DNA of 64,000 nucleotides, from NCBI RefSeq assembly GCF_025725665.1, contig NZ_CP107009.1, positions 992,001 to 1,056,000 of the forward strand, in the 5' to 3' direction. The position numbers and the translations under genes were made by a program. Origin of the DNA: Halomonas sp. LR3S48. GTDB taxonomy: Bacteria > Pseudomonadota > Gammaproteobacteria > Pseudomonadales > Halomonadaceae. Shown one piece after another: positions 1-40,882 of this stretch (its first letter is position 1; each line of letters begins with the position of its first letter). Under the pieces are notes generated by a model. The model ran no database searches, had not been told where the DNA came from, and worked only from the letters and a program-made list of their open reading frames with translations.

Positions 1-2
1 CT

Positions 3-911
3 GAGCTGTCGCTTCCGCCAGCCCTGCAGAGTGCCCAGCGAGGGGTGGGCATGCTCCAGGGGCGTGTGCGGGCAAGCGTGCCCGTAGTAAGGGAAGCACT
101 GAGGCGTCGGCTTGTCCCTTTGCGGGCTGCCCTGCAGCGCTTCGCCTTGCCAATGGTCCTTATCCTTCAAGGCAGGCTGGTGCGGTTGTGGTCCCGCATC
201 GAGCGTACCACCGCTCCCGTGAGCCAGCGCCTCGGTACCCGGCTCGCGCCGTTGGGAAGCTTCGTTTCCCGTCAATGGCGTCGGGTGCCGATCCCGGCGC
301 GCTGGCGCCACCGACTGGCCCAGGTGCGCCAGTCGCCGACGCGTGTCCTGGCCAGTCGCAGCACCGCGGTGACGGCGCTCTGCACGACCCTGGCGATCAT
401 TGGCATTTACCAGCTCGTTGGCGTCGGCACGGCAGGGGCCAGCATCTCAGCCAGTGCGCTCCACTCCACGGGCATGCTGCATCCACAGGCTGCCGAGGCG
501 GCCCGCTCGCTGATGGTCGTCGATACGCCACCCGGCGAGGCGCTGGCCCAGCGGCTCGCCGAGGTCGGTCTGGAGGGGCTGCAGGTCCGGGATGCCGGCA
601 ATCATCTGGTCGTGGACGGTGAGTTCCCTCCCGAACGCTATGACGAGTGGCGCGATGTGCAGCTCTGGTTCGACCAGCATTATGGCGGTAGCCAACTGCT
701 GATCAGCGAAGCCCGTCCGCAGCTGTCGACCGATTCGCCGGCCCTGCAGTTCCAGGCGGTGTGGTTCGGTGAGAATCCCTATGTCGTTGGCCCTCGGGGT
801 GAACGCCTCTATCCCGGTGCCGCCCTGCAGGAGGGTTGGGTGCTGGCAGAGATCGCCGACAACCGCGTCACGGTACGCCGTGGCAATGACGAATTCTCCC
901 TGACGCTGTAG
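3..911 (+). CDS. sctD: T3SS inner-membrane ring protein SctD, C-terminal part (start outside window)
   Basis: The frame is open to the left edge, so the N-terminus (normally a cytoplasmic FHA domain) is missing; a GTG at 45 is only an internal candidate. About 115 visible residues are Arg-rich and cytoplasmic, then comes one hydrophobic segment (around ALCTTLAIIGIYQLV) and about 170 periplasmic residues ending in a small beta-rich module (ERLYPGAALQEGW...NRVTV). This single-span, periplasmic ring-building layout with a C-terminal module of this type is that of the SctD/YscD/HrpQ family, which forms the outer ring of the inner-membrane basal body and contacts the secretin. Position 5' of sctX/Y/V supports the call; overall similarity is weak, as usual for SctD. 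Confidence 0.72.
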   Translation, partial: ELSLPPALQSAQRGVGMLQGRVRASVPVVREALRRRLVPLRAALQRFALPMVLILQGRLVRLWSRIERTTAPVSQRLGTRLAPLGSFVSRQWRRVPIPARWRHRLAQVRQSPTRVLASRSTAVTALCTTLAIIGIYQLVGVGTAGASISASALHSTGMLHPQAAEAARSLMVVDTPPGEALAQRLAEVGLEGLQVRDAGNHLVVDGEFPPERYDEWRDVQLWFDQHYGGSQLLISEARPQLSTDSPALQFQAVWFGENPYVVGPRGERLYPGAALQEGWVLAEIADNRVTVRRGNDEFSLTL

Positions 912-948
912 CGGAACGCTGCCGGCCCCTTGCCATGGAGGCGACGCC

Positions 949-1347
949 ATGAGAGTCACCGCCGATCGTATTCATGACGATTCTCGTCTTCGCTCCAGCG
1001 CCGGGACGGTGCCCCATGTCGGCGAGGCCGGTGGCAGCAAGCCCGTCGATCCGGAGCGACAAGCCGATTTCGCCAAGGCGGTGGAGGGCAGCCAGGCGCG
1101 TCGCCAGCAAGGCGGCACACTGCGTGAGCAGATCGAACGCTTGGCGCTGCCCGTTGCCGGCGATCCTTCGCTTTATGCCGATGAGCGCAGCATCGGGCTG
1201 CTGCAGCACGTTGTCGATGCGGTGTTGCCCGAGATGGACACGCAGGCCGAGGTCGTCGAGATGGCGGCGCAGCTGATCAATGAGGAAATCGCGCAGCGCC
1301 TAGAGTGGGCGGAACGACGCGCCGAGGCCAAGGAGTTCGAGCCATGA
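949..1347 (+). CDS. SctX-like T3SS export protein (YscX-type), by position and fold
   Basis: A 132-residue protein with a GGAGG ribosome site 5 bases before ATG 949. The N-terminal half is polar and probably disordered; the C-terminal half is helical (about residues 75-125, rich in Leu/Glu/Ala). In the Ysc family, yscX and yscY sit directly before yscV, and YscX is an early substrate that binds YscY and the export gate. Here the same size order (132, 110, SctV) is kept and each gene overlaps the next. No sequence motif proves the family, so this is a positional call; an uncharacterised T3SS accessory protein is the alternative. Confidence 0.5.
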   Translation: MRVTADRIHDDSRLRSSAGTVPHVGEAGGSKPVDPERQADFAKAVEGSQARRQQGGTLREQIERLALPVAGDPSLYADERSIGLLQHVVDAVLPEMDTQAEVVEMAAQLINEEIAQRLEWAERRAEAKEFEP

Positions 1348-1676
1348 GGGATGGCGACCAAGGAGCGGCGGAGCTGTTGCACATGATGGGGCATCTTTAC
1401 CTCAAGAGCGGCGAAACGAAGCGTGGTCTGGTGCTGCTGCTGATCGCGGTGCATCTCGCCCCCGAACATGCCGGCATCCTGCACACGCTGGCCCGGGCCT
1501 TCATCGCGGCGGGCGACACGTCGAGGGCGCTCGATGCGATCGAACACCTCGAACGGCTACAGGGAGCCTCGTCCGGGCTGGTGCTGCTGCAGAGCCGGGC
1601 GCTGTGGGCGGCTGGGCAGAAGGACGAAGCCCGACGTCGTTTCCGCGATTATTTGCAGCAGCGGGGGAATGCATGA
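1344..1676 (+). CDS. SctY-like TPR chaperone (YscY-type)
   Basis: ATG 1344 overlaps the stop of the SctX-like gene (ATGA), giving 110 residues, close to the 114 of YscY. The protein is made almost entirely of TPR-like helical pairs: LYLKSGETKRGLVLL, then ...PEHAGILHTLARAFIAAGD, then ALWAAGQKDEARRRFRDYL. YscY is a TPR chaperone that binds YscX and, with it, SctV. The gene lies immediately upstream of and overlaps sctV, as in Ysc systems. A longer upstream start (1305) is possible but would overlap the previous gene by 43 bases and lacks a ribosome site. Confidence 0.65.
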   Translation: MRDGDQGAAELLHMMGHLYLKSGETKRGLVLLLIAVHLAPEHAGILHTLARAFIAAGDTSRALDAIEHLERLQGASSGLVLLQSRALWAAGQKDEARRRFRDYLQQRGNA

Positions 1677-3874
1677 GCGTGGCCCTGGCGAAGCTCAATC
1701 TCCTCGCCCAGCGGGCTGCCCAGCGTAGCGACGTGGTCATTGCGCTGTTCATCGTGCTGGCGGTGGTTATGATGATCATCCCCTTGCCGACGACGTTGGT
1801 AGATGCGCTGATCGGCATCAACATCGGCTTCAGCCTGCTGATCCTCGTCGTGGCGTTCTACATCTCGCACCCGGTCGAGTACTCCTCGCTGCCGCCGATC
1901 ATCCTGCTGGCCACGCTGTTCCGACTGGCGCTTTCCATCACCACCACGCGGCTGATCCTGCTCGATGGCGATGCCGGGAAGATGGTGTCGGCGTTCGGCA
2001 ATTTCGTCATCGCCGGTGAGGTAATGATCGGCCTGGTGGTGTTCCTGATCATTACCGTGGCCCAGTTCCTGGTGATCACCAAGGGCGCCGAGCGGGTCGC
2101 CGAAGTGGCCGCCCGCTTCATTCTCGATGCCATGCCGGGCAAGCAGATGAGTATCGACAACGACCTGCGCAACGGCGATATCGAGCAGGCAGAGGCGCGC
2201 AACCGGCGTCAGCGCCTGGAGCAGGAGAGTCAGCTCTACGGAGCGATGGACGGTGCGATGAAGTTCGTCAAGGGCGATGCCATCGCCGGGCTGGTGATCC
2301 TGTGCGTCAACCTGATCGGTGGCCTGTCGATCGGCATGGTCAAGCGCGGCATGTCGTTCGGCGAGGCGGTGAATACCTATTCGCTGCTGACGGTCGGCGA
2401 CGGGCTCGTGGCTCAGATCCCGGCGCTACTGATCGCCGTTGGTGCCGGTACCGTCGTGACGCGGGTCAGCTCCAGTTCCGGCCATAGCGGTGACCTGGGC
2501 AGCGAGATCGTCGGCCAGCTCGGCAGGAGTGCCCGGGCGTTGGGATTGACCGCCATCATCCTGTTCTTCGCTGCCTTCATCCCGGGATTCGCTTCCGGGG
2601 TATTCCTCACCCTGGCGGCTGGGTTGGGTTTTGCAGCCTTCGTCATGCGTCGCCGGGAGCTCAGGCTGGTGGCGCAGGTTGATGCCGGCGGGGAGCTGTC
2701 CTCCCCGGCTCCCATGCCGGCAGGCACCGCCCCCGCCAGGCAACCGGCTACACCAGCTGACGAGGAACTGGCGCCGCACGCCGACACCGCACCGGAGGCG
2801 GGTGAATCACATCGTGTGGTGCTGCGTCTTGCGACTTCGCTGGCCGAAGCGCTATCTCTCGATGCCCTGCGCTGGGAGCTCGACGATGCGCGCCGCCGTG
2901 CCGGGGCGAACCTGGGAATCGAGATGCCGGGCGTCGGACTGCGCGTCGATGTAGCGCTGGAAGCCGACCATTTCGCCATCGAGCTCGATGAAGTCCCGAT
3001 CATGCAGGGGGAGCTTCCCGCCGAGCGGGTGCTGCTCGACGACGACCCCGTGCACCTGGAGCTGCTGGAGGTCGACGCCATCGAGCATCCGTCGCCGTTG
3101 GGTCGGCAATCGGGGCTCTGGGTGTCCGCGCAGGAGGTCGAGCGCCTGGATGAGGCCGGGATCGGCTACCGCCGAGCCGATCAGGTGCTGTGCCTGTGCC
3201 TGGAACGCACCTTGACCCGCTATGCCGGGGAGTTCGTCGGCATCCAGGAGACCCGCACGCTGCTGTCGCGCATGGAGCAGGACTATGCGGAGCTGGTGGG
3301 CGAGGCGGTGCGCGTGGTCTCGCTACAGAAGATATCGGACATCCTGCGCCGCCTGGTGGACGAGGGCATTCCGCTGCGCGCACTGCGCACCATCCTCGAG
3401 GCGGTGGTGACCTGGGGCCCCCAGGAAGCGAACGTGCCGCGGTTGACCGAGCGGATTCGGGCCGCCCTGTCGCGCCAGATCTGTCATCGCTTTGCCCGGG
3501 CCGATCGGGTGCTGCCGGCCTGGGTGGTGACCCGCCAGCTCGAGGAGGCCATTCGAGCGACGCAGCGCAGTGCCGATGGCGCTGCCAGGAGCGGCAGCGT
3601 ACCGGCATCGCTGTCACGCGCCTTGAACCGCTGGTTCCAGCAGCGTCTGGAGGCGCTGGACAGTGACGTGTCGCCGGTGGTGGTGGTGTCCGCCGACGTG
3701 CGTCCGGTGCTGCAGCAGTGGGCGAAGCGACACGAGCTGGATCTGCCGGTAATTGCCTGGTCCGAGGTGGCACCGGAGTTCAGCCTCCAGTCGCTGGCCC
3801 AGGTCAGGTTGCCGCAAGCTAACTCGCGGGGCGATGGCGAGGCTGCCAGCGCGCCCAAGGGCGAAGCGGAATGA
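1673..3874 (+). CDS. sctV: T3SS export gate protein SctV
   Basis: A 733-residue member of the FlhA/YscV/HrcV (FHIPEP) family. Residues about 18-340 hold the multi-pass membrane domain with conserved stretches such as PLPTTLVDALIGINIGFSLL and SSLPPIILLATLFRLALS, followed by the charged FHIPEP loop (FILDAMPGKQMSIDNDLRNG). A Pro/Ala-rich linker (about 340-380) is followed by the cytoplasmic domain that forms the nonameric ring receiving substrate-chaperone complexes (ending around 720). It powers and gates export together with SctR/S/T/U. Start ATG 1673 overlaps the sctY stop. The linker is somewhat longer than usual; otherwise length and motifs are standard. Confidence 0.97.
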   Translation: MSVALAKLNLLAQRAAQRSDVVIALFIVLAVVMMIIPLPTTLVDALIGINIGFSLLILVVAFYISHPVEYSSLPPIILLATLFRLALSITTTRLILLDGDAGKMVSAFGNFVIAGEVMIGLVVFLIITVAQFLVITKGAERVAEVAARFILDAMPGKQMSIDNDLRNGDIEQAEARNRRQRLEQESQLYGAMDGAMKFVKGDAIAGLVILCVNLIGGLSIGMVKRGMSFGEAVNTYSLLTVGDGLVAQIPALLIAVGAGTVVTRVSSSSGHSGDLGSEIVGQLGRSARALGLTAIILFFAAFIPGFASGVFLTLAAGLGFAAFVMRRRELRLVAQVDAGGELSSPAPMPAGTAPARQPATPADEELAPHADTAPEAGESHRVVLRLATSLAEALSLDALRWELDDARRRAGANLGIEMPGVGLRVDVALEADHFAIELDEVPIMQGELPAERVLLDDDPVHLELLEVDAIEHPSPLGRQSGLWVSAQEVERLDEAGIGYRRADQVLCLCLERTLTRYAGEFVGIQETRTLLSRMEQDYAELVGEAVRVVSLQKISDILRRLVDEGIPLRALRTILEAVVTWGPQEANVPRLTERIRAALSRQICHRFARADRVLPAWVVTRQLEEAIRATQRSADGAARSGSVPASLSRALNRWFQQRLEALDSDVSPVVVVSADVRPVLQQWAKRHELDLPVIAWSEVAPEFSLQSLAQVRLPQANSRGDGEAASAPKGEAE

Positions 3875-5280
3875 ACGACTCGAACGACAACCCTCCCCAT
3901 CAAGGAGCAGCGACTGCGATGGCAGCCAGACCCTCGATTCTCCCTCCCTCCCTCGGCCCGGTACATTTCCGCTACCTGGCCCGCTGCCTGACAGCAATCC
4001 TCACAACACTGCTGTCATGGCTCGTGCTGGCGGCTCCCGCGTATGCCCAGAACGTCGATGCCGGCGGGGAACAGGGACTTACGCTGGAGACCGGACAGGG
4101 GCGTATTCTGCGCTTCGGCGAACCGGCCGAGTCGGTGTTCGTGGCCGACCCCGAGATTGCCGACGTACAGATTGTCTCCCCTGGAGTGATCTATCTCTTC
4201 GGCAAGGCCCAGGGCGATACCAACCTGATCGTACTGGGCGCGGACGAGCGTACCCAGGCATCGATGCGCCTGCAGGTGCGTAATGGCTCCCGGGCGGCCA
4301 ACCAGGCCCTGCAGGGGGCCGGGGGTGGGGCGCCGATCGTGCTGCGCATGGCCGGCAACCAGCTGGTGGCGGAGGGGGAAAGCGCGGACGTCGACAGCGC
4401 CATCGCCATCCAGTCGACGCTCGAGAGTCACACGCCGGAAGAGGGGCGAGCGCTGGATGCCACCACTTACCAAGGCAGCACTCAGATCAACCTGCGCGTG
4501 CGCTTTGCCGAAGTCTCGCGTGAGGAGTTGCTGCAGTACGGCGTCAGCTGGAGCGCACTGATCAATAACGGCTCCCTGTCACTTGGCGTACTGCCCGGCT
4601 CCCAGGCAGGCATGACCTTCGGCACCCTGGGGGCCGGCAGCGACAGCATCGATGGGTTGCTCCAAGCGTTGCAGGAGAACGGCCTGCTGCAGATCCTGGC
4701 CGAGCCCAACATCACCACGGTCACCGGGGAAACCGCCAGCTTCCTGGCCGGCGGCGAGATCCCGATTCCGGTACCGGTCAATCGCGACCTGGTTGGCATC
4801 GAGTACAAGCAGTTCGGCGTCTCGCTGCTGTTCACGCCGGTGCTACTGCCCAACGATCGCATCTCGCTGCAGGTGCGCCCCGAGGTGAGCAGCCTGACCG
4901 GCAGCAGCGTGCAGGTCGGGGGCATCAGCGTGCCGGGGCTGCAGGTCCGGCGTGCCGATACCCTGGTAGAGGTGGGCAGCGGCCAGACCTTCGCCATTGC
5001 CGGCCTGTTCCAGCGCGACACCTTCAACAACATCGAGCGTGTCCCGGTGCTGGGCGATGTCCCGGTCCTCGGCAACCTGTTCCGCTCGCGGCGCTTCCAG
5101 CGCAACGAGACCGAGCTGGTGATCCTGATCACGCCCTATATCGTCGAACCTGTCTCGGCGCCATCGTCGGTTCGGCTGCCGATGGATCATGCACGGGTCG
5201 CCGGTGACGAAGGAAGGCTCGATACGAGCAGTGCCTACCGGGTCGCGAGTGACGACCCCTTCGGCTTCCACCTGCAATGA
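3871..5280 (+). CDS. Secretin of the Tad/Cpa (CpaC/RcpA) type serving the T3SS
   Basis: A 469-residue outer-membrane secretin. A signal peptide ends near AAPAYAQ (about residue 60). Next comes the pilus-assembly N-domain seen in CpaC/RcpA proteins (GQGRILRFGEPAESVFVADP, then VIYLFGKAQGDTNLIVLG), a BON-like segment, and the C-terminal secretin domain with RVPVLGDVPVLGNLFRS and TELVILITPYIVEPV. It lacks the N0 and N1 domains typical of YscC/InvG secretins. The gene overlaps sctV by four bases and is followed by a CpaD-like lipoprotein, so it is the outer ring of this T3SS rather than of a pilus. From memory, rhizobial RhcC2 has a similar role and origin. Function is inferred from context; family assignment is firm. 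Confidence 0.9.
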   Translation: MNDSNDNPPHQGAATAMAARPSILPPSLGPVHFRYLARCLTAILTTLLSWLVLAAPAYAQNVDAGGEQGLTLETGQGRILRFGEPAESVFVADPEIADVQIVSPGVIYLFGKAQGDTNLIVLGADERTQASMRLQVRNGSRAANQALQGAGGGAPIVLRMAGNQLVAEGESADVDSAIAIQSTLESHTPEEGRALDATTYQGSTQINLRVRFAEVSREELLQYGVSWSALINNGSLSLGVLPGSQAGMTFGTLGAGSDSIDGLLQALQENGLLQILAEPNITTVTGETASFLAGGEIPIPVPVNRDLVGIEYKQFGVSLLFTPVLLPNDRISLQVRPEVSSLTGSSVQVGGISVPGLQVRRADTLVEVGSGQTFAIAGLFQRDTFNNIERVPVLGDVPVLGNLFRSRRFQRNETELVILITPYIVEPVSAPSSVRLPMDHARVAGDEGRLDTSSAYRVASDDPFGFHLQ

Positions 5281-5297
5281 ACAAGGAGAACGAGGGC

Positions 5298-5726
5298 ATG
5301 CGCTATCACACAGGCTGGCGAACCTGGCGACTTCTCCCTCTGGCGCTGCTGCTGAGCGGCTGCGTCTCGTCGATGGGACCGATCTCTTGGGAGACCGGCT
5401 ATCGGCAGGTGAGCGAACCCGCGGGGAGTGATACCGAGGCGCTGCGCCGTAGCATCGCGCCCAATACCTGCCGGGTGTCACCCGGTCAGGCCGGCATCGT
5501 ACCCCTGCCGCCCGGTTGCGCCAACGACCTCAACCTCCAGGCCATGGTCGAGCGCCCTGGGGATCTGCTCCACGGACGTGAGATGGGGCCTGCAAGAGGT
5601 GCTCCGGTAGCGGCGGCGGCTCGCGAACGCCTGGAGGACCGGGAGCGTGCCAACAGCCGCCGTGTTGTGCTCGAGTCGGAAGCGCGTGGCTCCGCCAGTC
5701 GCAGCGCCACCACGGGGGATCTGTGA
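5298..5726 (+). CDS. CpaD-like lipoprotein, secretin accessory
   Basis: A 142-residue lipoprotein with a signal sequence and lipobox LLSG-C (Cys22). The start at 5298 is preferred because AAGGAG lies 9 bases upstream; an ATG at 5277 overlapping the secretin stop would add 7 residues. The central stretch GCANDLNLQAMVERPGDLLHGR resembles the conserved core of CpaD (pilus biogenesis lipoprotein partnering the CpaC secretin), while the rest is low in conservation. It follows the Cpa-type secretin directly. It probably helps outer-membrane insertion or stability of that secretin. The family call rests on one short motif plus context. Confidence 0.6.
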   Translation: MRYHTGWRTWRLLPLALLLSGCVSSMGPISWETGYRQVSEPAGSDTEALRRSIAPNTCRVSPGQAGIVPLPPGCANDLNLQAMVERPGDLLHGREMGPARGAPVAAAARERLEDRERANSRRVVLESEARGSASRSATTGDL

Positions 5727-5748
5727 GCATTGGCCTGCAGCCGCTGCT

Positions 5749-5773
5749 CCCCTGGGGCGCTTGGCCCCAGGGG
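5749..5773. terminator. Hairpin between convergent genes (bidirectional terminator)
   Basis: Perfect 10-bp stem CCCCTGGGGC / GCCCCAGGGG with a 5-base loop, lying between the stops of the CpaD-like gene and the convergent TadD-like gene. There is no U-tract on either side, so termination strength is uncertain. Confidence 0.55.
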
Positions 5774-5778
5774 GGGCG

Positions 5779-6567
5779 TCATTGCGCCATGGCCAGGCCC
5801 ATGGCGCGGGCTCGGTCGGCGGGGTCGGTGATCTCGCCGATGCGCGCAGCCTGCTCGATCAGCGATTGGCGCTGGCTGGGGGACATCTCCGGCAGTGCGA
5901 TGCTGTGGGCCTGTTCCAGCTCCTGGGCTAGCACCAGCACCAACACCATGTTGCGGAAATGGCGCTCCTCTGCCAGCGGTGAGTCGTTGACACGACGCAT
6001 CAGCTCGATGGCCTCGTCGTCCTCTCCGGCCAACGAATGCGCCAGCGCCAGGTTGGTAAGGGCATCGGGGCTATGCGGCGAGAGTGCTGCCGCCTGGGAG
6101 AAGGCGTGCTGCGCCGACTCACCCTGGCCCAGCAGGGCGTGGGCAGCGCCCAAGCGGCTCCAGGCCGACAGAGTATTCACTTCCGGGGCCGCCTTGTGCA
6201 GGTTGCGTACCGCACTTTCGACCTCGCCAAGGCGCAACTGGGCCGTGCCCAGTCCCAGCAGGGCATCAGTGTTCTCGATATCGAGACTCAGGGCGGTACG
6301 AAAGGAGGTCTTGGCGGCTTCCGCGTTACCGGCATCGAGCCGGGCATTGCCGAGCCGCACATGGATCTGGGGATCGTCGGCAGACAGCTCCGCCGCTCGC
6401 TCGTACATGGCGGCGGCCGTGGCGTGGTCGCCGCGCCGGCCGATGTCGTCCGCCAGGCTGAGCAGTCGGGCTTCCTCTCCGCCCAGGCCGCTGCCGGTAG
6501 TCGAGCAGGCGCCGAGCGTCAGACAGGAAAGCAGGAGAGCGGGCATTCGTATGTCGTTGCGTATCAC
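5779..6567 (-). CDS. TadD-like TPR lipoprotein
   Basis: A 262-residue lipoprotein (lipobox LTLGA-C, Cys21) with about five tandem TPR units (for example GDHATAAAMYERAAELSADD, NARLDAGNAEAAKTSF, GTAQLRLGEVESAVRNL). TadD/Flp-pilus TPR lipoproteins have this layout and assist their secretin. Its start is a GTG at 6567 preceded by AGGAGG at 8 bases. It is transcribed convergently to the Cpa-type secretin and CpaD-like genes and divergently from the SctC N-terminal gene, so it sits inside the T3SS cluster. It is probably the pilotin for the Tad-type secretin; rhizobial y4yS is, from memory, a comparable TPR protein. Other TPR functions cannot be excluded. Confidence 0.72.
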   Translation of the reverse strand: MIRNDIRMPALLLSCLTLGACSTTGSGLGGEEARLLSLADDIGRRGDHATAAAMYERAAELSADDPQIHVRLGNARLDAGNAEAAKTSFRTALSLDIENTDALLGLGTAQLRLGEVESAVRNLHKAAPEVNTLSAWSRLGAAHALLGQGESAQHAFSQAAALSPHSPDALTNLALAHSLAGEDDEAIELMRRVNDSPLAEERHFRNMVLVLVLAQELEQAHSIALPEMSPSQRQSLIEQAARIGEITDPADRARAMGLAMAQ

Positions 6568-6745
6568 CGATGAGACCTCCTCGTATATGGAAGCACGCCC
6601 CGAGTTTGCTTGCCGTGCAATACACCTTTCAAGGAGCTTTCCGTTGCGGGTATTCCAGGGAAGCCTGCTACCTCGTCAGGCAAAGACGTTTCGATACTAC
6701 TGCACCTTTATCCTCCTTGGTATAGGAAAAATCATTTCGGTATCG
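6568..6745. promoter_or_regulatory. Divergent control region of the second T3SS block
   Basis: A 178-base region between the TadD-like gene and the SctC N-terminal gene, clearly richer in A and T than the flanking genes, particularly at 6690-6745. It must hold the promoter for the long co-directional T3SS operon (6746-15879) and one for the TadD-like gene. No confident sigma-70, HrpL-type or TtsI-type motif could be assigned by eye. Confidence 0.5.
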
Positions 6746-7339: not shown

Positions 7340-7392
7340 CGGTGAAACGAAGAAAGCAGGCGAAACGAAGAGAAGAAAAGGAGGAAGCGATC

Positions 7393-7572
7393 ATGGCGAC
7401 TGAAGCCGTAGGTGCACCCGGTGGCAACGACCTTTCCAGCACGGATCAGCAGGCTTTCGATGCCGCCGTCGAGAATGCCCAGGCCCAGGCCATTGTCGGC
7501 CAGGCAGTGGGATCACTAGCGATGATGCACCTGATGGATTATGCCGGTGACATGCTCAAGGACGAAGGCTGA
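7393..7572 (+). CDS. 59-residue small T3SS protein, candidate needle/pilus subunit
   Basis: ATG 7393 follows a strong AAGGAGG site 7 bases away and gives a 59-residue, acidic, mostly helical protein without signal peptide or Trp (core DQQAFDAAVENAQAQAIVGQ). It lies just before sctI-sctJ, the place occupied by the needle or pilin gene (yscF, hrpA) in many systems, and has the small helical character of needle subunits. It is shorter than YscF (about 85) and near HrpA of Erwinia (about 65). The assignment rests on position and size only; a second inner-rod-like protein or chaperone is possible. Confidence 0.5.
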   Translation: MATEAVGAPGGNDLSSTDQQAFDAAVENAQAQAIVGQAVGSLAMMHLMDYAGDMLKDEG

Positions 7573-7634
7573 CGTCGGTACGAATGCGGCAGGAATTGCC
7601 TGCCGTTCAGGCACACGTTATGAGGTGATTCGTG

Positions 7635-8857: not shown

Positions 8858-9546
8858 GCGGAGCAAATACCGCCGCCGAACGAGAATCGTCGGCCTCGGC
8901 ATGGCGATCCTTCGTCGAGGCGCCGGCGCGCTGCGTTGCGCGCCCTTGGTTGCAGGATTGCCTGGGTGGGATCGCCGGTGACGCCCTCCTGGAGTCGCTG
9001 ATGCTGCACCCTCGCTTCCAGCGCCGTCTGGCGCAGCGGCTGATTGACCGGCATGGATTGATGCCGCCCGAGTCGCTGCCCGCGCCCACCGAAGAGGACG
9101 CCCGGCTGCTGGCGCTGCCGGCGCGGGCCGGCGCCAGCTTGGTCCATTATTGCGGCGTGATCTGCCATGCCGCCGCTTTCGTGCGCGAGATCCGCGCGCC
9201 TCGCGTGGTGGCACTGAAGCAACGTTTCGGCGACGCCGCCTTCGCCGCCGCGCTGGCCAACCGCGAGCTGGCAGTGGCGGCAGCGAGCGACGACATCGAG
9301 ATACTGGCGCGGGAGGTCAAGCGCGATGGGCAGGCCTGCGTCTCGGCCTGGCTGTCGCTGCAGCCGCCCGAACTCGCCGCCTGGCTGAGGCTGGGGTTGG
9401 CCAGCGGCTTGCCGGAGGAGGTGCTGGAAGGAGCCTCCCCCGAGGTTTGCCGGCAAGGGCCTGGCATCGTGCGCTGCGCCGCCGCCATCGTCGATGCCGA
9501 GATCAGGGAGTCAGAGCATGCACGAACTGCCGACACGTCCGGGTAA
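8854..9546 (+). CDS. sctK: T3SS sorting-platform protein SctK (NolU/HrpD-like)
   Basis: A 230-residue soluble protein, Ala/Leu/Arg-rich, with ATG 8854 overlapping the sctJ stop. Position between sctJ and sctL, length near 210-230 and the helical composition fit the SctK family (YscK, HrpD, NolU), the adaptor connecting the SctQ pods of the cytosolic sorting platform to the SctD ring. Family members share little sequence, and no catalytic motif is expected. It overlaps sctL by 29 bases in another frame. Confidence 0.75.
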   Translation: MSGANTAAERESSASAWRSFVEAPARCVARPWLQDCLGGIAGDALLESLMLHPRFQRRLAQRLIDRHGLMPPESLPAPTEEDARLLALPARAGASLVHYCGVICHAAAFVREIRAPRVVALKQRFGDAAFAAALANRELAVAAASDDIEILAREVKRDGQACVSAWLSLQPPELAAWLRLGLASGLPEEVLEGASPEVCRQGPGIVRCAAAIVDAEIRESEHARTADTSG

Positions 9547-10114
9547 GGTCATCCTGCGCGGCGACGAGGCCCAGGCCTGGATCGATGGCTACGCCTTTCT
9601 CGAGCGCGCCCGGGCACAAGCCAGGGAGGTGGAGGCGAGGACCCGACATACCGCCGCCAGCGCCTATGCCGACGGCTTTGAGGAGGGGCGCCGGGAAGGC
9701 GAGGCTCGGGCAGCCGAATTGCTGACACAGGCCACCCAGCGGGTGGAGAGCTACTTGGCGGGGCTCGACCAGGCACTGGCCGAGCTCTCCCTGGGCATGG
9801 TGCGCCGCATCCTGGGCGAATTCGACGACGCCGAGCTGGTGAGCCGCTGTGCGCGCCAGGCCCTGCGCGAATTGCGCCACGACATGCGGGTCAGCGTGCG
9901 CGTCGCGCCGGAGCGGGTAGCAGCCGTCGAAGCGCTGCTGGCCCAGGGGCCGTCGATAGCCGAAGGCCCCGCCTATCGCGTCGAAGGCGACGCGCAGCTG
10001 GGGCCGGGCCAATGCCTGTTGGTCAGCCCGGTGGCGATCGTCGATGTCGGGCTTGATGCCCAACTGACTGCCCTGCGTCGCGCGCTGACGAGTGGCCAGG
10101 AGCTGCGCCGATGA
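9518..10114 (+). CDS. sctL: T3SS ATPase stator SctL
   Basis: A 198-residue protein beginning at ATG 9518 (GGGAG 7 bases upstream, inside the end of sctK). An N-terminal helical segment rich in Ala, Glu and Arg (FLERARAQAREVEART, GFEEGRREGEARAAELL) leads to a FliH/HrpE-like C-terminal domain with VRVAPERVAAVEALL and GDAQLGPGQCLLVSP. SctL dimers form the spokes that link the SctN hexamer to SctQ and regulate ATPase activity. It lies directly before and overlaps sctN, the constant order of this family. Confidence 0.9.
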   Translation: MHELPTRPGKVILRGDEAQAWIDGYAFLERARAQAREVEARTRHTAASAYADGFEEGRREGEARAAELLTQATQRVESYLAGLDQALAELSLGMVRRILGEFDDAELVSRCARQALRELRHDMRVSVRVAPERVAAVEALLAQGPSIAEGPAYRVEGDAQLGPGQCLLVSPVAIVDVGLDAQLTALRRALTSGQELRR

Positions 10115-11448
10115 CGTCTCCCGAGATCGACCTCGAGGCGCTGCTGCCGCGACTGGGCGCGCGGCTGGAAGAGGCCGAACTGCGTCCGGTACACGGCCGG
10201 GTACGCCGAATTCGCGGCCTGCTGGTGCACGCCAGCGTCGACGGCACCGGCATCGGTGAGCTGTGCTACCTGCGCGACCCCGTGAGCGGACGCCATGTCG
10301 CCGCCGAAGTGATCGGCTTCGAGGAGGAGCACGCCATCCTCTCTCCGATCGGCGACCTGCAGGGCATGTCCACCCGGGCCGAGGTCATCGCCACCGGCGG
10401 ACCGCAGGGGGTGCCGGTGGGTGAGGCGCTGCTGGGGCGGGTAATCAGCCCACTGGGCACCTTCATCGATGCCGCACCGGATCGTGACATTGATGCCCTG
10501 CGCATCTGCCCCGTGCATGCCGAACCGCCCAGTCCCCTGGCGCGACAGTTGATCCAGCATCCGCTGGCGCTGGGCATTCGCGCCATTGACGGCCTGCTGA
10601 CCGTGGCGCGTGGCCAGCGCGTCGGCATCTTCGGCGAGCCCGGGGTGGGCAAGTCGTCGCTGCTCTCCGCCATCGTACGCGGCAGCGAGGCGGAGGTCAT
10701 CGTGCTGGGATTGGTCGGCGAACGCGGTCGCGAAGTACGCGAACTGCTGGATGTGCAGCTCGATGCCAAGGCCCGGCAGCGCACTGTCTGCGTAGTGGCC
10801 ACTTCCGATCGCCCGGCCATCGAGCGGGCACGGGCCGCCATGGTGGCCACCACCGTGGCGGAGCACTTCCGCGACCAGGGGCGCGACGTCCTGCTGCTGG
10901 TCGACAGCATTACCCGTTTTGCCCGAGCCCAGCGCGAGATCGGCCTGGCCGCCGGCGAGCCACCGACCCGACGCGGCTATCCGCCTTCGCTCTTCGCCGC
11001 CTTGCCGCGTTTGCTGGAGCGGGCGGGGCCGGGGGCCAGCGGGAGCATCACCGCGCTCTATACCGTGCTCACTGAGGGCGACGGCAGCCTCGATCCAGTC
11101 GCCGAAGAGACGCGGGCCATTCTCGACGGCCACATCGTACTCAGCGCCGACCTGGCCAAGCGTGACCACTTTCCGGCCATCGACGTCCTTGCCAGCCGCA
11201 GCCGCCTGATGGATGCCGTCATCTCGAACGAGCAGCGCCGCAACGCCGGCCGAATTCGCGACCTGCTGGCGCGCCATCGCGACGTCGAGCTGCTGCTTCA
11301 GGTCGGTGAGTACCGCGAGGGCAACGACCCCCTTACCGACGAGGCGGTTGCCAGGCATGCCGCCATCGAAGCCTTCCTGCGCCAGAGCGAGAGGGAACAC
11401 AGCGACTTCGAGGAAACCTTGAAACGCATGGATGAACTGCTGTCATGA
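10111..11448 (+). CDS. sctN: T3SS ATPase SctN
   Basis: A 445-residue FliI/YscN-type ATPase. Walker A GEPGVGKS lies at residues 175-182, Walker B LLLVDS near 262-267, followed by the T3SS ATPase signature ITRFARAQREIGLAAGEPP. The N-terminal beta-barrel domain carries the LGRVISPLG-type loop and the C-terminal helical domain ends with ADLAKRDHFPAIDVLAS...RHRDVELLLQVGEYREG. It unfolds substrates and strips chaperones at the cytosolic base of the apparatus. ATG 10111 overlaps sctL, and the stop overlaps sctO. Confidence 0.97.
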   Translation: MTSPEIDLEALLPRLGARLEEAELRPVHGRVRRIRGLLVHASVDGTGIGELCYLRDPVSGRHVAAEVIGFEEEHAILSPIGDLQGMSTRAEVIATGGPQGVPVGEALLGRVISPLGTFIDAAPDRDIDALRICPVHAEPPSPLARQLIQHPLALGIRAIDGLLTVARGQRVGIFGEPGVGKSSLLSAIVRGSEAEVIVLGLVGERGREVRELLDVQLDAKARQRTVCVVATSDRPAIERARAAMVATTVAEHFRDQGRDVLLLVDSITRFARAQREIGLAAGEPPTRRGYPPSLFAALPRLLERAGPGASGSITALYTVLTEGDGSLDPVAEETRAILDGHIVLSADLAKRDHFPAIDVLASRSRLMDAVISNEQRRNAGRIRDLLARHRDVELLLQVGEYREGNDPLTDEAVARHAAIEAFLRQSEREHSDFEETLKRMDELLS

Positions 11449-11933
11449 CCGAACGCTTCCGACTCGAGCAACTCATGGCGCTGCGTGAGCGGCGCGAACG
11501 CCTGGCCGAGGCCGCCCTGGCGGCGCAGCAACGGCGCTGTCGGGACGAGGCGCACCGCATCGATGAGCTCGACCTCACCCTGGCGCGCGAGCAGAGCGAC
11601 TTCGACCGGCTAGAGCAGGCGTGGTTCGAGGCGGCGGAGGGGGCGACGCTGTCGCCCGCGGAGCTGGAGCAGGCGCGCCAGGCCATCGACGATCATGAGC
11701 GGCGCCAGACCGAGTTGGCCGATGCGCGCTCGGCGGCCGAACGGGAGCAATGCCGGCTGCTCGAGGAGTGTGCCCGGCAGGCCGAGGTCTGGAAGCAGCG
11801 CTCCCATGCCCGGGAGGCGCTGGGGAAGCTGGTCGAGCGTCGCCGCAGCGCTGATCGCATCGTGCAGGAGGGGCGCCTCGAGGCGGACCTCGAGGACACC
11901 CTGCCGCGTGGGGGGCCGGAATGGCGAAGCTAG
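11445..11933 (+). CDS. sctO: T3SS central stalk SctO
   Basis: A 162-residue protein that is almost wholly charged helical heptads (RLEQLMALRERRERLAEAAL, then RRCRDEAHRIDELDLTLARE), predicted to form the two-helix coiled coil of the FliJ/YscO/RhcZ family. This stalk sits in the centre of the SctN hexamer and contacts SctV. Position between sctN and sctQ is invariant in T3SS operons and supports the call. ATG 11445 overlaps the sctN stop. A separate SctP ruler gene, often found after sctO, is absent here. Confidence 0.85.
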   Translation: MTERFRLEQLMALRERRERLAEAALAAQQRRCRDEAHRIDELDLTLAREQSDFDRLEQAWFEAAEGATLSPAELEQARQAIDDHERRQTELADARSAAEREQCRLLEECARQAEVWKQRSHAREALGKLVERRRSADRIVQEGRLEADLEDTLPRGGPEWRS

Positions 11934-13057
11934 ATCTGGTGCCGGCGGCGGGGCGGCAGGGCTCGACGACGAGAGACACGGTCGTGGCGGCGCGTCTGCC
12001 CCGGCTCTCGCTGGAGCAGGTGACCATCCTCAACGCGCTGCATCGCCCGCGCCTGGCACTCGCACTCTCCCTGGGCGAGCGGGCGCTGCGGTTGCGCATC
12101 GTCGCGGAAGCCGGGCCACCTTCCTTGCCCGTGGCACTGGGGCTATCGATAGGCGGCGCCCCGGCGCTGCTGGAGCTCTGCCATGACAGCCTGGCGCTCT
12201 TGACGGATCGCCTGGCGTTGCGTACCGGGCTGGAGGCGTGCGAACCCGGCCTCGCGGCGCTGTGGCTGGAGTACGCCTTGCTGGAGTGGATCGAGCCCTT
12301 GGAAGCGCGCCTGGGCGTCGCCCTGCAGCTGGACGAGGCGCCTCCTTCGGCCGAGGAAGCCGTGGCCATACGCATTTCGCTGCACCTGGAGGCCGATGGG
12401 CACGCCAGCCATCTGCGCTTGTCGCTGGGCGCCGCCGCCATGCGGGCCGTCGCGCCGTTGCTGGGGGCTCTGCCTGCCGTCGAACCCAGGCCGTGCTCGG
12501 CGCTGCCCATCTCCGTGCAGTGGCTCGCCGGGCACCAACGGCTGCGACTGGACGAGCTGCGCGGCCTGATGCCGGGCGACGTGGTGCTGCTCGAACGACC
12601 GGCCGAGGCGCTGGCGATCGCCGGACGCTCCATGGCCAAGGTGGTGGAACAGGACGATGGCCTGAAACTGCTCACGCCACCCACTGCCGGGCATGGCGAC
12701 GACCTCGATGTGCCCCGGAACGATCTCCCCAGCAACGATTCCCTCAAGAACCATCCCCGCAGTAACGACAGGAGCCGTGACGCCATGGCAGAAGACTCTC
12801 GTAGCCCGAAACCGCCGCCCACGGATGCGGCGGCCCTGGATGGCTTGCCGATGCGCCTGGTGTGCGAGCTCGGCCGCCTGGAGCTCTCGCTCGGCGAGCT
12901 TCGCGAACTGGGGCCGGGCAGCGTGCTGCCGCTGTCCCGGCCGACGGAGAACGCCGTGGACCTGGTCGTCAATGGTCGGCCCATGGGCCGAGGGCGGCTG
13001 GTGGAGATCGGCGACAGCCTGGGCGTGCAGATCGTAAGGCTCACGGGCGATGAGTGA
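11921..13057 (+). CDS. sctQ: T3SS cytosolic ring/pod protein SctQ
   Basis: A 378-residue protein of the YscQ/HrcQ/FliM-FliN family. The N-terminal part (about 1-195) is poorly conserved. It is followed by a first SPOA domain (about 200-260, RLRLDELRGLMPGDVVLLE) and, after a charged linker, a second SPOA domain (about 308-375, LPMRLVCELGRLELSLGELR...NAVDLVVNGRPMGRGRLVEI). It forms the pods of the sorting platform that recruit substrate-chaperone complexes. ATG 11921 overlaps the end of sctO. An in-frame internal start at Met289 probably yields a short C-terminal form, listed separately. Confidence 0.92.
   Translation: MAKLDLVPAAGRQGSTTRDTVVAARLPRLSLEQVTILNALHRPRLALALSLGERALRLRIVAEAGPPSLPVALGLSIGGAPALLELCHDSLALLTDRLALRTGLEACEPGLAALWLEYALLEWIEPLEARLGVALQLDEAPPSAEEAVAIRISLHLEADGHASHLRLSLGAAAMRAVAPLLGALPAVEPRPCSALPISVQWLAGHQRLRLDELRGLMPGDVVLLERPAEALAIAGRSMAKVVEQDDGLKLLTPPTAGHGDDLDVPRNDLPSNDSLKNHPRSNDRSRDAMAEDSRSPKPPPTDAAALDGLPMRLVCELGRLELSLGELRELGPGSVLPLSRPTENAVDLVVNGRPMGRGRLVEIGDSLGVQIVRLTGDE
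12785..13057 (+). CDS. Probable SctQ-C short form from internal translation start
   Basis: Inside sctQ, ATG 12785 is in frame and preceded by AGGAG (12770-12774), a 10-base spacing. It would give 90 residues containing only the second SPOA domain. Yersinia YscQ-C and Salmonella SpaO-S are made exactly this way, are of the same length (about 88-100 residues), and bind the full-length protein. The site falls in the charged linker between the two SPOA domains, where other systems place it. This is inferred from sequence alone. Confidence 0.5.
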   Translation: MAEDSRSPKPPPTDAAALDGLPMRLVCELGRLELSLGELRELGPGSVLPLSRPTENAVDLVVNGRPMGRGRLVEIGDSLGVQIVRLTGDE

Positions 13058-13706
13058 GTTCGAGCCCAACCTGGTCGGCATGATCATCGTCATGGCCGGC
13101 CTGGGGCTGCTGCCCCTGGCGGTGGTGACCATGACCTCGTTTCTCAAGATCGCCGTGGTGCTGTTCCTGATTCGCAACGCCCTGGGCATCCAGCAGACGC
13201 CGCCCAACCTGGTGCTCTACGGCATCGCCCTGGTGCTGACCGTCTATATCACCACGCCGCTGGTCGGCGAGATCGCCTACCGGCTCGAGAACCACGGCGG
13301 TTCGCTGGAGAGCGTCGAGGACATCCGCGAGACCGGTAGGCTGCTGCGCGGGCCGCTACAGGAGTACCTGTCGCTCTACGCCAACGAGCGTGAGCGCGCC
13401 TTCTTCATCGATGCCACGCAGAACATCTGGTCGGAGCAGGCGCGCGAGAATCTGCAGGATGACGACCTGGTGGTGCTGATTCCGGCCTTCGTCACCTCCG
13501 AACTCGTGCGTGCCTTCGAGATCGGCTTTCTGATCTACATCCCGTTCCTGGTCATCGACCTGGTGGTGGCCAACGTACTGATGGCGATGGGCATGGTGAT
13601 GGTCGCGCCGCCGCTGATCTCGGTGCCGCTGAAGATCTTCCTGTTCGTTGCCGTGGACGGCTGGTCGCGCCTGATGCACGGCCTGATCCTCAGCTACGGA
13701 GGTTAG
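13050..13706 (+). CDS. sctR: T3SS export apparatus protein SctR
   Basis: A 218-residue FliP/YscR-family membrane protein with four hydrophobic segments. Conserved stretches are MTSFLKIAVVLFLIRNALG, a central polar loop with SLYANERERAFF, and the C-terminal block FVTSELVRAFEIGFLIYIPF followed by DLVVANVLMAMGMVMVAP. Five SctR subunits with SctS and SctT form the export pore at the centre of the basal body. ATG 13050 overlaps the end of sctQ. Length matches the family. Confidence 0.97.
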   Translation: MSEFEPNLVGMIIVMAGLGLLPLAVVTMTSFLKIAVVLFLIRNALGIQQTPPNLVLYGIALVLTVYITTPLVGEIAYRLENHGGSLESVEDIRETGRLLRGPLQEYLSLYANERERAFFIDATQNIWSEQARENLQDDDLVVLIPAFVTSELVRAFEIGFLIYIPFLVIDLVVANVLMAMGMVMVAPPLISVPLKIFLFVAVDGWSRLMHGLILSYGG

Positions 13707-13711
13707 CCACC

Positions 13712-13981
13712 GTGTCCGGCGAGATCTTCCTCACGCTGATGAACAATGCCCTGTGGACCGTACTGCTGCTATCCGCACCCGCGCTGCTGGCGGCGATCGT
13801 GATCGGCTTCGGCATCGGCCTGCTGCAGGCGCTGACGCAGATTCAGGACCAATCGCTGCCCCAGGCGGTCAAGGTCATTGTGATCATGCTGGTGCTGATC
13901 GTGGGAGGGCCGCTGCTGGTAGGGCAGCTCGTCAACCTGACCGACCAGGTGCTGGACAACTTTGCCGCCTGGTCGCGCTGA
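13712..13981 (+). CDS. sctS: T3SS export apparatus protein SctS
   Basis: An 89-residue FliQ/YscS-family protein with two hydrophobic hairpin helices (LLLSAPALLAAIVIGFGIG and VKVIVIMLVLIVGGPLLVG) around the conserved QALTQIQDQSLPQ loop. The start is a GTG at 13712, 5 bases after the sctR stop, with a GGAGG at 13698-13702 inside the end of sctR. It completes the SctR5-S4-T1 pore. Small size and motif make the call firm. Confidence 0.96.
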   Translation: MSGEIFLTLMNNALWTVLLLSAPALLAAIVIGFGIGLLQALTQIQDQSLPQAVKVIVIMLVLIVGGPLLVGQLVNLTDQVLDNFAAWSR

Positions 13982-13987
13982 GGTCCC

Positions 13988-14833
13988 ATGGCATTCGAGG
14001 AATTCTTTCCCTTCCTTACCGAGTTGGTCTATCCCATGCTCGTGGCCGCTTCCATCGGCATGACTCGGGCGCTGGGGGTGATCCTCATCACGCCGGCCTT
14101 CAATCGGCTCGGCCTGACCGGGATGATCCGCTCCGCCGTCGCCGTGACCATCGCCTTGCCGGCGATACCGTTCATCTTCTCCGCGTTACCGTCGCTGGGC
14201 CCGCTGTCGGCCTTCGGTCTTGCCGCCCTGCTGATCAAGGAGCTGATGATCGGCGCCGTCATCGGCGTGGTGTTCGGCATACCGTTCTGGGCGGCGGAGG
14301 TGGCGGGGGAAGTGGTCGACCTGCAGCGTGCCTCGACCATGGGGCAACTGCTCGATCCGATGGGCAGCACCGAGTCGGGCGTCACCAGCACGCTGCTGGT
14401 AGTGACCCTGGTAGCGCTGTTCTTCGTCTCGGGTGGCTTCATGATCATGCTCGAGGGGTTCTACGCGAGCTATGCGCTGTGGCCGGTGGAGCGCTTCGTG
14501 CCGGTGCTTGAGTCCCGCACCGCCCTGACGATGCTGGATATGCTGGACCAGGTGATGCGGGTGGGGGTGATGATGGTCGCGCCGCTGGTGATCGCCCTGC
14601 TGGTCGCCGACCTGATGCTTGCCTATCTGGCACGCATGGCGCCCAGCCTGAACGTGTTCTCGCTGTCGCTGGCGATCAAGAACCTGCTCTTCACCTTCCT
14701 GATGCTGCTCTACATCGTCTTCCTGATACCGCTGCTGGTGGAGGAGCTCGGCACGCTGGGTGACGGCTATCGGCGCCTCGAGACGCTGCTGGGCAGTGTC
14801 GCCTGGCTGCCCGGAGAGCAGGGGCGCGCATGA
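13988..14833 (+). CDS. sctT: T3SS export apparatus protein SctT
   Basis: A 281-residue FliR/YscT-family protein with about six hydrophobic segments. Family-typical stretches include GMTRALGVILITPAFNRLGL near the N-terminus and a central GVVFGIPFWAAEVAGEVVDL followed by MGQLLDPMGSTESG. A single SctT closes the SctR/S helical pore. It starts 6 bases after sctS and overlaps sctU by four bases. Confidence 0.96.
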   Translation: MAFEEFFPFLTELVYPMLVAASIGMTRALGVILITPAFNRLGLTGMIRSAVAVTIALPAIPFIFSALPSLGPLSAFGLAALLIKELMIGAVIGVVFGIPFWAAEVAGEVVDLQRASTMGQLLDPMGSTESGVTSTLLVVTLVALFFVSGGFMIMLEGFYASYALWPVERFVPVLESRTALTMLDMLDQVMRVGVMMVAPLVIALLVADLMLAYLARMAPSLNVFSLSLAIKNLLFTFLMLLYIVFLIPLLVEELGTLGDGYRRLETLLGSVAWLPGEQGRA

Positions 14834-15879
14834 GCGAGAAACCCAGCGAAGAGAGATCGCTGCCGCCCTCCGAAAAGAAGCTGCGCGACGCGCGCAAGAA
14901 GGGGCAGGTCAGCAAGAGCTCGGACATGGTCACCGCCATGGTGATGCTGGGCTGTACGCTCTATCTCGTCATGGCTGTCGGCGGCATCGAACGGCGTGTG
15001 CGCCACCTCATCAGCACCACCACACGTCTCTATCACGAGCCGTTCGACACCCTGTGGCCACGCCTGCTGGCGCTGGGGGCGGAAATCGTGGTGCGCTCGG
15101 TACTGCCGATCATCGTCATCTCCGTCGTGGCCGCCGTACTGACCAACATCCTGATCATGCGCGGCCCGGTATTCTCGGTGGACCCGATCAAGCCGAGATT
15201 CGAGCGCATCAATCCCGCCGAGGGCTTCAAGCGAATCTTCTCGGCCCGCGGCGTGATCGAATTCGTCAAGTCGCTGATCAAGATGGTCGCGCTGGGCACG
15301 GCGTTCGTGATCGTCTTCCGGCTGGGGCTGCAAACCCTGATGGACTCACCACGCTGTGGTTTCGACTGCCTGGATGGCATCTTCATGGCGTTGCTCAAGC
15401 CGCTGATCATTACCGCCCTGATCGCCTTCCTGGTGGTTGGATCGATCGACGTGCTGATGCAGCACTGGCTGTTCCGGCGCGATCAGCGCATGACCCGGAC
15501 CGAGCACAAGCGCGAGCGCAAGGATCTGGAGGGCGACCCCGAGATCCGCCGTGCCCGCCAACGCGAACGGCGCGACATGTACGCCCACACCGCGCGAACC
15601 GGCGTGGAGCACGCTTCGCTCATGCTGGGCGCCGCCGGCGACTGGCTGGTAGGGCTGCGCTACGTCAAGGGCGAGACGCCCGTGCCGGTGGTGGTGTGCA
15701 AGGCCTCTCCCGATCAGTCCGCCGCGCTGCTCGAAGCGGCCGCCACCCAGGGAGTTGCCGTAGCCATCCGGCCGGGGCTGGCGGCTCGAATCGCCAAGCG
15801 GGCCGGTAACGGCGGGCCGATTCCCCAGGATACGTTCCAGGCAGTCGCCGACGAGTTGGTGGTGGCCGGGTTGATCTAA
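14830..15879 (+). CDS. sctU: T3SS switch protein SctU, lacking the NPTH autocleavage motif
   Basis: A 349-residue FlhB/YscU-family protein. The N-terminal motif SEKKLRDARKKGQVSKSSD, four membrane helices (to about residue 210) and the linker RMTRTEHKRERKDLEGDPEI are all standard. In the cytoplasmic domain the autocleavage tetrapeptide NPTH, normally just before a conserved ALRY, is replaced by Ala268-Ala-Gly-Asp271 (15631-15642); the following LRYVKGETPVPVVV is intact. Autoproteolysis between Asn and Pro normally allows the switch from early to late substrates, so this protein should not self-cleave. It is the last gene of the T3SS operon. Confidence 0.95.
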   Translation: MSEKPSEERSLPPSEKKLRDARKKGQVSKSSDMVTAMVMLGCTLYLVMAVGGIERRVRHLISTTTRLYHEPFDTLWPRLLALGAEIVVRSVLPIIVISVVAAVLTNILIMRGPVFSVDPIKPRFERINPAEGFKRIFSARGVIEFVKSLIKMVALGTAFVIVFRLGLQTLMDSPRCGFDCLDGIFMALLKPLIITALIAFLVVGSIDVLMQHWLFRRDQRMTRTEHKRERKDLEGDPEIRRARQRERRDMYAHTARTGVEHASLMLGAAGDWLVGLRYVKGETPVPVVVCKASPDQSAALLEAAATQGVAVAIRPGLAARIAKRAGNGGPIPQDTFQAVADELVVAGLI

Positions 15880-40851: not shown

Positions 40852-40882
40852 TTCCGAGCCTGGATGCTTGTTTGTAAGTGCC

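Follow-up and report, generated by a model that had tools for sequence, protein, structure and literature searches.

Does a type III secretion system (T3SS) that combines an Rhc-like gene order with outer-membrane proteins of Tad-pilus type, on the chromosome of a Halomonas-like host, represent a mosaic machine, and at what would it be aimed? The question was raised by an initial annotation of positions 1-15879 of the window, that is, the whole stretch of 64,000 nucleotides analysed here (Halomonas sp. LR3S48, contig NZ_CP107009.1, positions 992,001 to 1,056,000). The machine itself proves to be ordinary, a member of the Rhc kind, for which pilus-like outer-membrane parts are known. The less ordinary and more curious part of the locus is the giant gene beside it.

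Gene content and integrity

Positions 1-15879 hold a complete Rhc-type T3SS, with all named genes intact and in the order initially given. The first gene of the locus, a 2526-aa ORF (genome positions 983469-991049), starts about 8.5 kb before the window and is followed by a 65-aa ORF that occupies the nopA position. Next comes the inner-membrane ring gene SctD (1-911, plus strand, as are all genes below unless stated), which is cut by the window start; it begins 336 bp earlier as a full ORF, and has Y4YQ_C and YscD-type Pfam domains, the SctD NCBIfam score being below cut-off. Between SctD and SctV lie a small conserved ORF, orf132 (949-1347; no Pfam family over cut-off, present in 75 of 80 relatives), and an SctY-type TPR chaperone (1344-1676; NCBIfam T3SS_chap_SctY, 72.6 bits for a cut-off of 70). 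The export gate SctV (1673-3874; FHIPEP, 1e-200) precedes the outer-membrane genes: RhcC2, a Tad-type secretin (3871-5280; Secretin and T2SS-T3SS_pil_N domains), a CpaD-like lipoprotein (5277-5726), a TadD/pilotin-like TPR lipoprotein (5779-6567, minus strand; lipobox and TPRs in the translation) and RhcC1 (6746-7339), a T3SS secretin reduced to its N-terminal (N0) part, which aligns with residues 2-138 of the SctC model (463 residues). A single 538-aa gene at 5723-7339 had been a candidate and was rejected: translation of the RhcC1-type protein (197 aa) begins at about 6746, and the earlier part of that frame is occupied by the TPR lipoprotein gene on the minus strand.

Downstream, a 59-aa ORF (7393-7572) is a needle candidate by position, conserved in two congeners and found in 24 of the 80 relatives at E<=0.01. 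It is followed by an SctI-type protein (7638-8060; assigned by position, no family match) and SctJ (8057-8857; YscJ_FliF), then by SctK (8854-9546; by position, no Pfam family), the SctI-type and SctK genes both being present in 80/80 relatives. The run continues with the stator SctL (9518-10114; T3SS_SCTL), the ATPase SctN (10111-11448; ATP-synt_ab and T3SS_ATPase_C), the stalk SctO (11445-11933; coiled-coil only, placed by its position between SctN and SctQ), SctQ (11921-13057; FliMN_C), SctR (13050-13706; FliP), SctS (13712-13981; Bac_export_3), SctT (13988-14833; Bac_export_1) and SctU (14830-15879; Bac_export_2).

With the starts chosen in this analysis, overlaps of 1-29 bp join 12 of the 20 neighbouring gene pairs. 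Two congeners keep the whole series of 21 genes, from the 65-aa ORF to SctU, in the same order and with 52-99% identity, and dN/dS ranges from 0.03 to 0.45 (12 of the locus genes, two comparisons). Taken together, these observations indicate that the gene set is more than a chance assembly. Ahead of SctD, 2 promoter-like and 2 terminator-like sites were seen, shuffled sequences giving 1.0 and 0.6; this was not used as evidence. Family, gene order, intact frames and purifying selection are read directly from the sequence. A decaying island without function could be suspected from the patchy distribution, a close SctJ being present in 33 of the 275 genomes of the host's family; however, the intact frames, the low dN/dS and the order kept in congeners make this very unlikely.

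Placement within the Rhc family and the outer-membrane parts

From 280 candidate loci in a genome scan, 80 were kept as relatives (37 in Pseudomonadaceae, 22 in Halomonadaceae, 20 in Hyphomicrobiales and 1 unranked) and 14 were put in trees of SctV, SctN, SctJ and the secretin, all of which gave warnings of long branches meeting. In the SctV tree, our locus is one of 9 rows forming a Halomonadaceae clade (100/100). This clade is part of a larger one of 22 rows (96/81), which also holds Pseudomonas and rhizobial subgroup-II rows as well as one subgroup-III row, and which joins five Rhc-I rows (99/98). In the SctN tree, 21 subgroup-II rows stand on one side of a branch (100/100). Both trees therefore uphold the initial assignment to Rhc, from which a distant placement would have detracted. 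In the SctJ tree, which counts against the assignment, subgroup II is not recovered, the tree being disturbed by a Klebsiella row and long branches, though our row still falls in the Halomonadaceae clade. The Halomonas-type host was also correctly recognised, the closest named loci being those of Billgrantia and Halomonas. It is no odd carrier of such a system, as had been implied, given the 33 family genomes with a close SctJ.

The secretin was rightly described as Tad-like. RhcC2 and Tad secretins form a group of 24 rows (100/100), apart from five SctC rows (100/100), so that a position of 3871-5280 inside YscC/HrcC is not seen; within this group the subgroup-II RhcC2 proteins make a clade of 16 rows (97/97), in which our RhcC2 is nested among Halomonadaceae. 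A full-length SctC secretin of the YscC family was not found at the locus, where the SctC model scores 78.8 bits for a cut-off of 238 and RhcC2 lies outside the SctC clade. The secretin is split, into the N-terminal remnant RhcC1 and the Tad-type RhcC2. Our CpaD-like protein scores 28.5 bits against Pilus_CpaD, under the family cut-off of 31.1, and among its relatives (25 members; 22 loci selected out of the 77 that carry the gene) 25/25 of those aligned match this family at E<=0.01. We relied on this Pfam scan, as our own CpaD profile, built from stop-to-stop frames, was noisy: with it the CpaD of S. alkalisoli reached no better than E 0.0024, and that of Bradyrhizobium was not listed. A profile of the TPR relatives finds TPR genes at 3/4 Tad loci, the host's own included (not at that of genome G024), with the caveat that TPRs attract one another. 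A search for viral relatives of the TPR gene found none. Tad-like secretin matches in genomes G022, G024 and G007 were considered as further T3SSs and rejected, the remainder of the T3SS query set having no match in the surrounding 20 kb; the neighbours of the G024 match are Tad genes.

What did not stand is the contrast drawn between an Rhc order and a Tad outer membrane. A Tad-type secretin is a published trait of Rhc systems (PMC3459982, PMC4500985), and in Mesorhizobium loti the TPR protein Y4yS is TadD-related and affects RhcC2 levels, loss of RhcC2 being reported for the y4yS mutant; a CpaD homologue is noted in the same work (PMC4311626). Since secretin, TPR protein and CpaD-like lipoprotein are all published Rhc parts, the 'mosaic' is no surprise. 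One may still imagine a new mosaic, an Rhc base onto which this lineage grafted outer-membrane parts of its own Tad pilus or of some other recent Tad source. A Tad locus is indeed present in the genome, RcpC/CpaB, secretin, TadA-type and TadB/C-type genes lying around 1.67 Mb. However, the host's Tad secretin lies outside the 16-row RhcC2 clade that contains ours, and RhcC2, CpaD-like, TPR and RhcC1 genes are all present in 77/80 relatives, the remaining 3 being cut by contig ends. We regard such grafting as extremely unlikely. In the 77 relatives RhcC2 and the CpaD-like gene always adjoin on one strand (77/77), and the TPR gene is opposite to RhcC2 in 68, the 9 same-strand cases all being Hyphomicrobiales. 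In all likelihood, judging from these sequences, the locus is a subgroup-II Rhc-type T3SS with its own outer-membrane kit, both passed down within Halomonadaceae.

By analogy with studied relatives, SctD and SctJ would form the inner rings, and export would be driven by SctR-S-T-U-V with SctN, K, L, O and Q. RhcC1 would bridge SctD to the RhcC2 channel, which the TPR and CpaD-like lipoproteins may help to place and stabilise in the outer membrane. Many Halomonadaceae and Pseudomonadaceae have subgroup-II machines (together 59 of the 80 loci retained), so that harmless halophiles could serve for testing how a Tad-type channel docks on a T3SS base via RhcC1.

The upstream giant and its possible target

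The 2526-aa gene stands just outside the window, directly before the 65-aa ORF and SctD. Its C-terminal region is variable. Identity between the giants of two congeners is 39%, versus 82-99% for 12 core genes. The giant of one congener carries a Scabin-like ADP-ribosyltransferase domain; ours ends in a weak LysM-type match. There are signs that the giant has been partly swapped between species. DNA tandem repeats were looked for in it and none were found. A database-wide search with a module common to the giants and to 523-525-aa methyltransferase proteins gave one match only, a Halomonas methyltransferase. Our giant also has a DUF4781 match below cut-off, and its hydrophobic stretch 1732-1760 falls at the same DUF4781 profile position as that of a Bosea protein encoded next to an Rhc-I T3SS.

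Searches of our own genome for three translocator families (HrpK1, SseC and NolX) and for one of gatekeepers gave no match. HrpK-type proteins gave 0 matches there, in genomes G012 and G016 and in the H. ventosae genome, the control records being detected 3/3. A diverged translocator may escape such detection.

Two roles may be envisaged for the giant. It could be a structural or pore-forming part analogous to HrpK: it immediately precedes the 65-aa ORF and SctD, no HrpK-type gene was found there, and its hydrophobic stretch recurs in the Bosea protein. Yet the strong divergence between congeners and the ADP-ribosyltransferase domain of one version fit a substrate meeting its target better than a fixed part, and the structural role seems to us unlikely. 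We give an even chance, on sequence grounds, to the giant being a secreted modular substrate, a main one of the machine, and an effector with an exchangeable C-terminal region; congeners would then provide a natural set of exchanged versions carried by almost identical machines. As for the target, a functional T3SS directed at bacteria, or releasing its substrates into the medium, could account for the missing translocator families and for the LysM-type ending. The former argument is weakened if a diverged translocator was missed, the ADP-ribosyltransferase domain fits targets inside cells, and the studied T3SSs of the Rhc family act on eukaryotes; we therefore consider this alternative unlikely. 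Eukaryotic cells of saline habitats are the rather more probable candidate target, on which the giant may be used as a main substrate. A bolder and quite improbable proposal is that the Halomonadaceae branch dispensed with a separate translocon: the giant would translocate itself, its DUF4781-type stretch 1732-1760 inserting in the target membrane and the exchangeable C-terminal region being carried across, while species swap large parts of giants between otherwise vertically inherited machines.

Comparison with known systems

The Tad (Flp) pilus, with CpaC, CpaD and TadD, shares the secretin architecture and the CpaD-type and TPR lipoproteins, but genes for the Tad ATPase, TadB/C platform and pilin are absent from the annotated genes of 1-15879 and are found at the 1.67 Mb locus. 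In B. cenocepacia, T3SS clusters are likewise accompanied by a giant protein matching DUF4781 (PMC12580581); by comparison, the match of our giant is below cut-off and no HopBF1 domain was found in it.

Subgroup I (Bradyrhizobium, M. loti, NGR234a) has in common with our locus a Tad-type RhcC2 followed by a CpaD-family lipoprotein, and the RhcC1 remnant. It differs in that its genes lie in separate segments, in a nodulation context, with a NolX translocator in Bradyrhizobium 62B, and it forms a separate clade from our row in the SctV and SctN trees.

The nearest match is subgroup II, that is, P. syringae T3SS-2 and NGR234 pNGR234b, whose described gene order agrees with ours (PMC3574062). Core genes, split secretin and the presence of sctO are shared (PMC3574062), as are the TPR gene that faces the other way between the two secretin genes (described for some strains) and a pair of small ORFs separating SctD from SctV, of which one codes for a TPR protein. 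No HrpP/YscP-type gene lies between SctO and SctQ, which in our locus overlap by 13 bp. An HrpK-type translocator is optional, present in the P. syringae clusters and lacking in NGR234 T3SS-2, and our locus, without an HrpK1-family match, resembles the latter. Where it departs from subgroup II is in being a single uninterrupted gene run, and in the 2526-aa gene upstream.

Position of the locus among type III secretion systems

The host genome measures 4.69 Mb, and within the window (bases 992001-1056000) ORF listing and family scans revealed a complete core T3SS gene set, running from the window start to position 15879. All of its reading frames are intact, and 12 of the 20 neighbouring gene pairs overlap. 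SctD is truncated by the window start; the whole gene lies upstream, preceded by a 65-aa ORF and then by a 2526-aa ORF, hereafter the giant. SctU is followed by genes that, from their translations, we take to be of the YCII, ECF-sigma, MgtC and UmuD/UmuC types. Further on, window 42000-52000, after a tRNA-Lys gene pair (40776-40958), is of lower GC content (0.55-0.60) and carries diguanylate cyclase, Crp-type regulator, CheB-CheR-PAS, DUF892 and phospholipase-D-type genes.

The SctV tree comprised 35 sequences: the host's, that of a congener (G016), 19 plasmid references (two being FlhA) and 14 from the 80 loci described below. For NGR234b, P. syringae, Bradyrhizobium and M. loti, subgroup labels are those of PMC3574062; all others are assigned here. 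The host sequence falls within a nine-member Halomonadaceae clade (100/100), nested in a 22-member clade (96/81) with Pseudomonas, Klebsiella and rhizobial subgroup-II sequences and one of subgroup III; this adjoins Rhc-I, the 27 sequences together being supported at 99/98. The SctN tree (30 sequences, omitting those scoring 60 bits or less or with no sctN in the fetched stretch) is consistent with it, and the Rhc kinship proposed in the initial annotation is thus borne out. In the SctJ tree (28 sequences), which long branches disturb, subgroup II is not recovered and the Halomonadaceae clade holds (100/99). The family identity and channel build of this T3SS are well supported; its needle identity, substrate and target we infer.

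Two plasmids deserve mention. The conjugative Klebsiella pneumoniae plasmid pAP855 (L021, 11759-49618) encodes an Rhc T3SS resembling subgroup II, which includes a Tad-type secretin and an HrpK-type protein; two further Klebsiella records were among the matches listed, with similar hits. The T3SS of Paracoccus kondratievae pKON1 (L022) also includes a Tad-type secretin, and its flanks carry a transglycosylase gene and a 1324-aa gene; the SctV of this system branches outside Rhc I and II.

The outer-membrane set and its distribution

RhcC2 (3871-5280) contains Secretin and pilus N-terminal domains, as in Tad-type secretins. In the secretin tree (32 sequences), RhcC2 and Tad secretins form a single clade (100/100), separate (100/100) from five SctC of Ysc, Hrp1, Hrp2, SPI-1 and Desulfovibrio types, as the initial annotation had anticipated. 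The host RhcC2 lies inside a 16-member subgroup-II RhcC2 clade (97/97), outside of which falls the host's own Tad secretin; the grouping of all RhcC2 is weak (70/83), and the tool flags long branches meeting.

In the adjacent CpaD-like lipoprotein (5277-5726), the Pilus_CpaD match spans 33 residues and is under cut-off. An alignment of 25 CpaD-like proteins (the host's, 22 from the 80 loci and two annotated CpaD beside Rhc-I clusters) shows an invariant lipobox cysteine, and each of the 25 is assigned to Pilus_CpaD at E<=0.01. A TPR lipoprotein follows on the minus strand (5779-6567). A profile built from its T3SS relatives retrieved TPR genes at the host's own Tad locus (E 1.3e-22) and at two further Tad-like loci, but missed the one in G024. 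By position and make-up, this TPR lipoprotein is an analogue, and not an established orthologue, of Y4yS, because y4yS homologues are confined to a subset of Rhc systems and subgroup II has none, according to the commentary PMC4500985. Of a T3SS secretin, the RhcC1-type protein (6746-7339) comprises the N-terminal portion alone.

Scanning genome contigs with an SctJ alignment gave 280 confirmed relatives, and the best 80 of the 280 were analysed: 37 Pseudomonadaceae, 22 Halomonadaceae, 20 Hyphomicrobiales and one unranked gammaproteobacterium. RhcC2, CpaD-like, TPR and RhcC1 genes were all found in 77 of these 80 (phmmer, E<=0.01); the three loci with an incomplete set (L056, L060, L094) are all at contig ends. 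Within the host's own family, SctJ was matched at E<=1e-10 in 41 of 275 genomes: 33 at E<=1e-100 (seven genus codes), one distant (39%), and seven of about 30%, located in 589-649 aa frames, which we take for flagellar FliF. The locus does recur in other Halomonadaceae.

Translocator searches covered the families HrpK1, SseC and NolX, and the gatekeeper search covered HrpJ. In the host and congeners G012 and G016, there was no match to HrpK1 (one search recovered no control, another three of three control records), SseC (one of two reference records recovered), NolX (one of one) or HrpJ (two of two controls). A diverged translocator may be present.

The giant gene upstream

The giant (genome 983469-991049, or 11469-19049 of the fetched stretch L003), a modular ORF, has a GC content of 59%, vs 67% for the T3SS core. 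Three N-terminal stretches give a DUF433-type match above its cut-off, and DUF4781 and LysM matches are weak. Its residues 1732-1760 form a hydrophobic stretch, and a protein next to an Rhc-I T3SS of Bosea has such a stretch at the same DUF4781 profile position.

In SctV, the host and B. saliphila form one pair (93%), G016 and H. heilongjiangensis the other (94%). The giants show the opposite pairing across residues 300-1960: host with H. heilongjiangensis (91-94%) and B. saliphila with G016 (68-80%), remaining pairings among the four being at 41-63%. The H. heilongjiangensis giant does lie on the flank of that same locus (100% over 165 residues). Judging from these identities, large portions of the gene appear to have been swapped between species. 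The exchange would concern large parts rather than the whole gene, because residues 1-300 pair differently: G016 goes with H. heilongjiangensis (84%) and the host (73%), vs 41% with B. saliphila.

Residues 1961-2450 are the most divergent between the two types, and the C-terminal region is variable: the G016 giant has a Scabin-like/Enterotoxin_a-type ADP-ribosyltransferase match above cut-off, that of B. saliphila ALTTAQ repeats, and a family scan of the host giant gave no ADP-ribosyltransferase or Methyltransf_28 match. A Methyltransf_28 protein of 523-525 aa adjoins the giant in the B. saliphila and G016 genomes; genes for such proteins beside giants lie at L010:401-1972 (minus strand) in G012 and L012:16783-18360 (plus strand) in G016. 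The C-terminal part of this protein is similar to a stretch within giants, and a database search with that part returned one Halomonas protein. The giant is replaced in H. ventosae, a Salinicola and Halomonas PA16-9 by a protein of some 1200 aa, located downstream of SctT; these proteins do not match the giants, the upstream flanks of the three genomes being covered in part.

Comparison with known Rhc systems

Our search, largely beyond which lie subscription journals, found no literature on Halomonas that coupled type III secretion with rhc or with sctV, and, judged by title, no paper on Salinicola and type III secretion that concerned this topic. The Rhc architecture itself is well described. 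Abby and Rocha (2012, PMC3459982) place RhcC2 on a common branch with Tad secretins and describe RhcC1 as what is left of an older secretin, which may have been retained as a linker to SctD. In subgroup II as characterised by Gazi et al. (2012, PMC3574062), the two secretin halves are separated by a TPR ORF of opposite orientation, and two ORFs lie between SctD and SctV; an HrpP/YscP-type gene is absent in every subgroup. Mercante et al. (2015, PMC4311626) link Y4yS to RhcC2 levels and mention a CpaD homologue. By analogy with rhizobia, helper and linker roles may carry over to the outer-membrane parts of the Halomonas locus. The initial annotation had seen in this locus a mosaic machine: its Tad-type outer-membrane parts are indeed present, as domains and secretin tree indicate, but the combination is not novel, since these three papers report its components, making the mosaic a published hallmark of Rhc systems.
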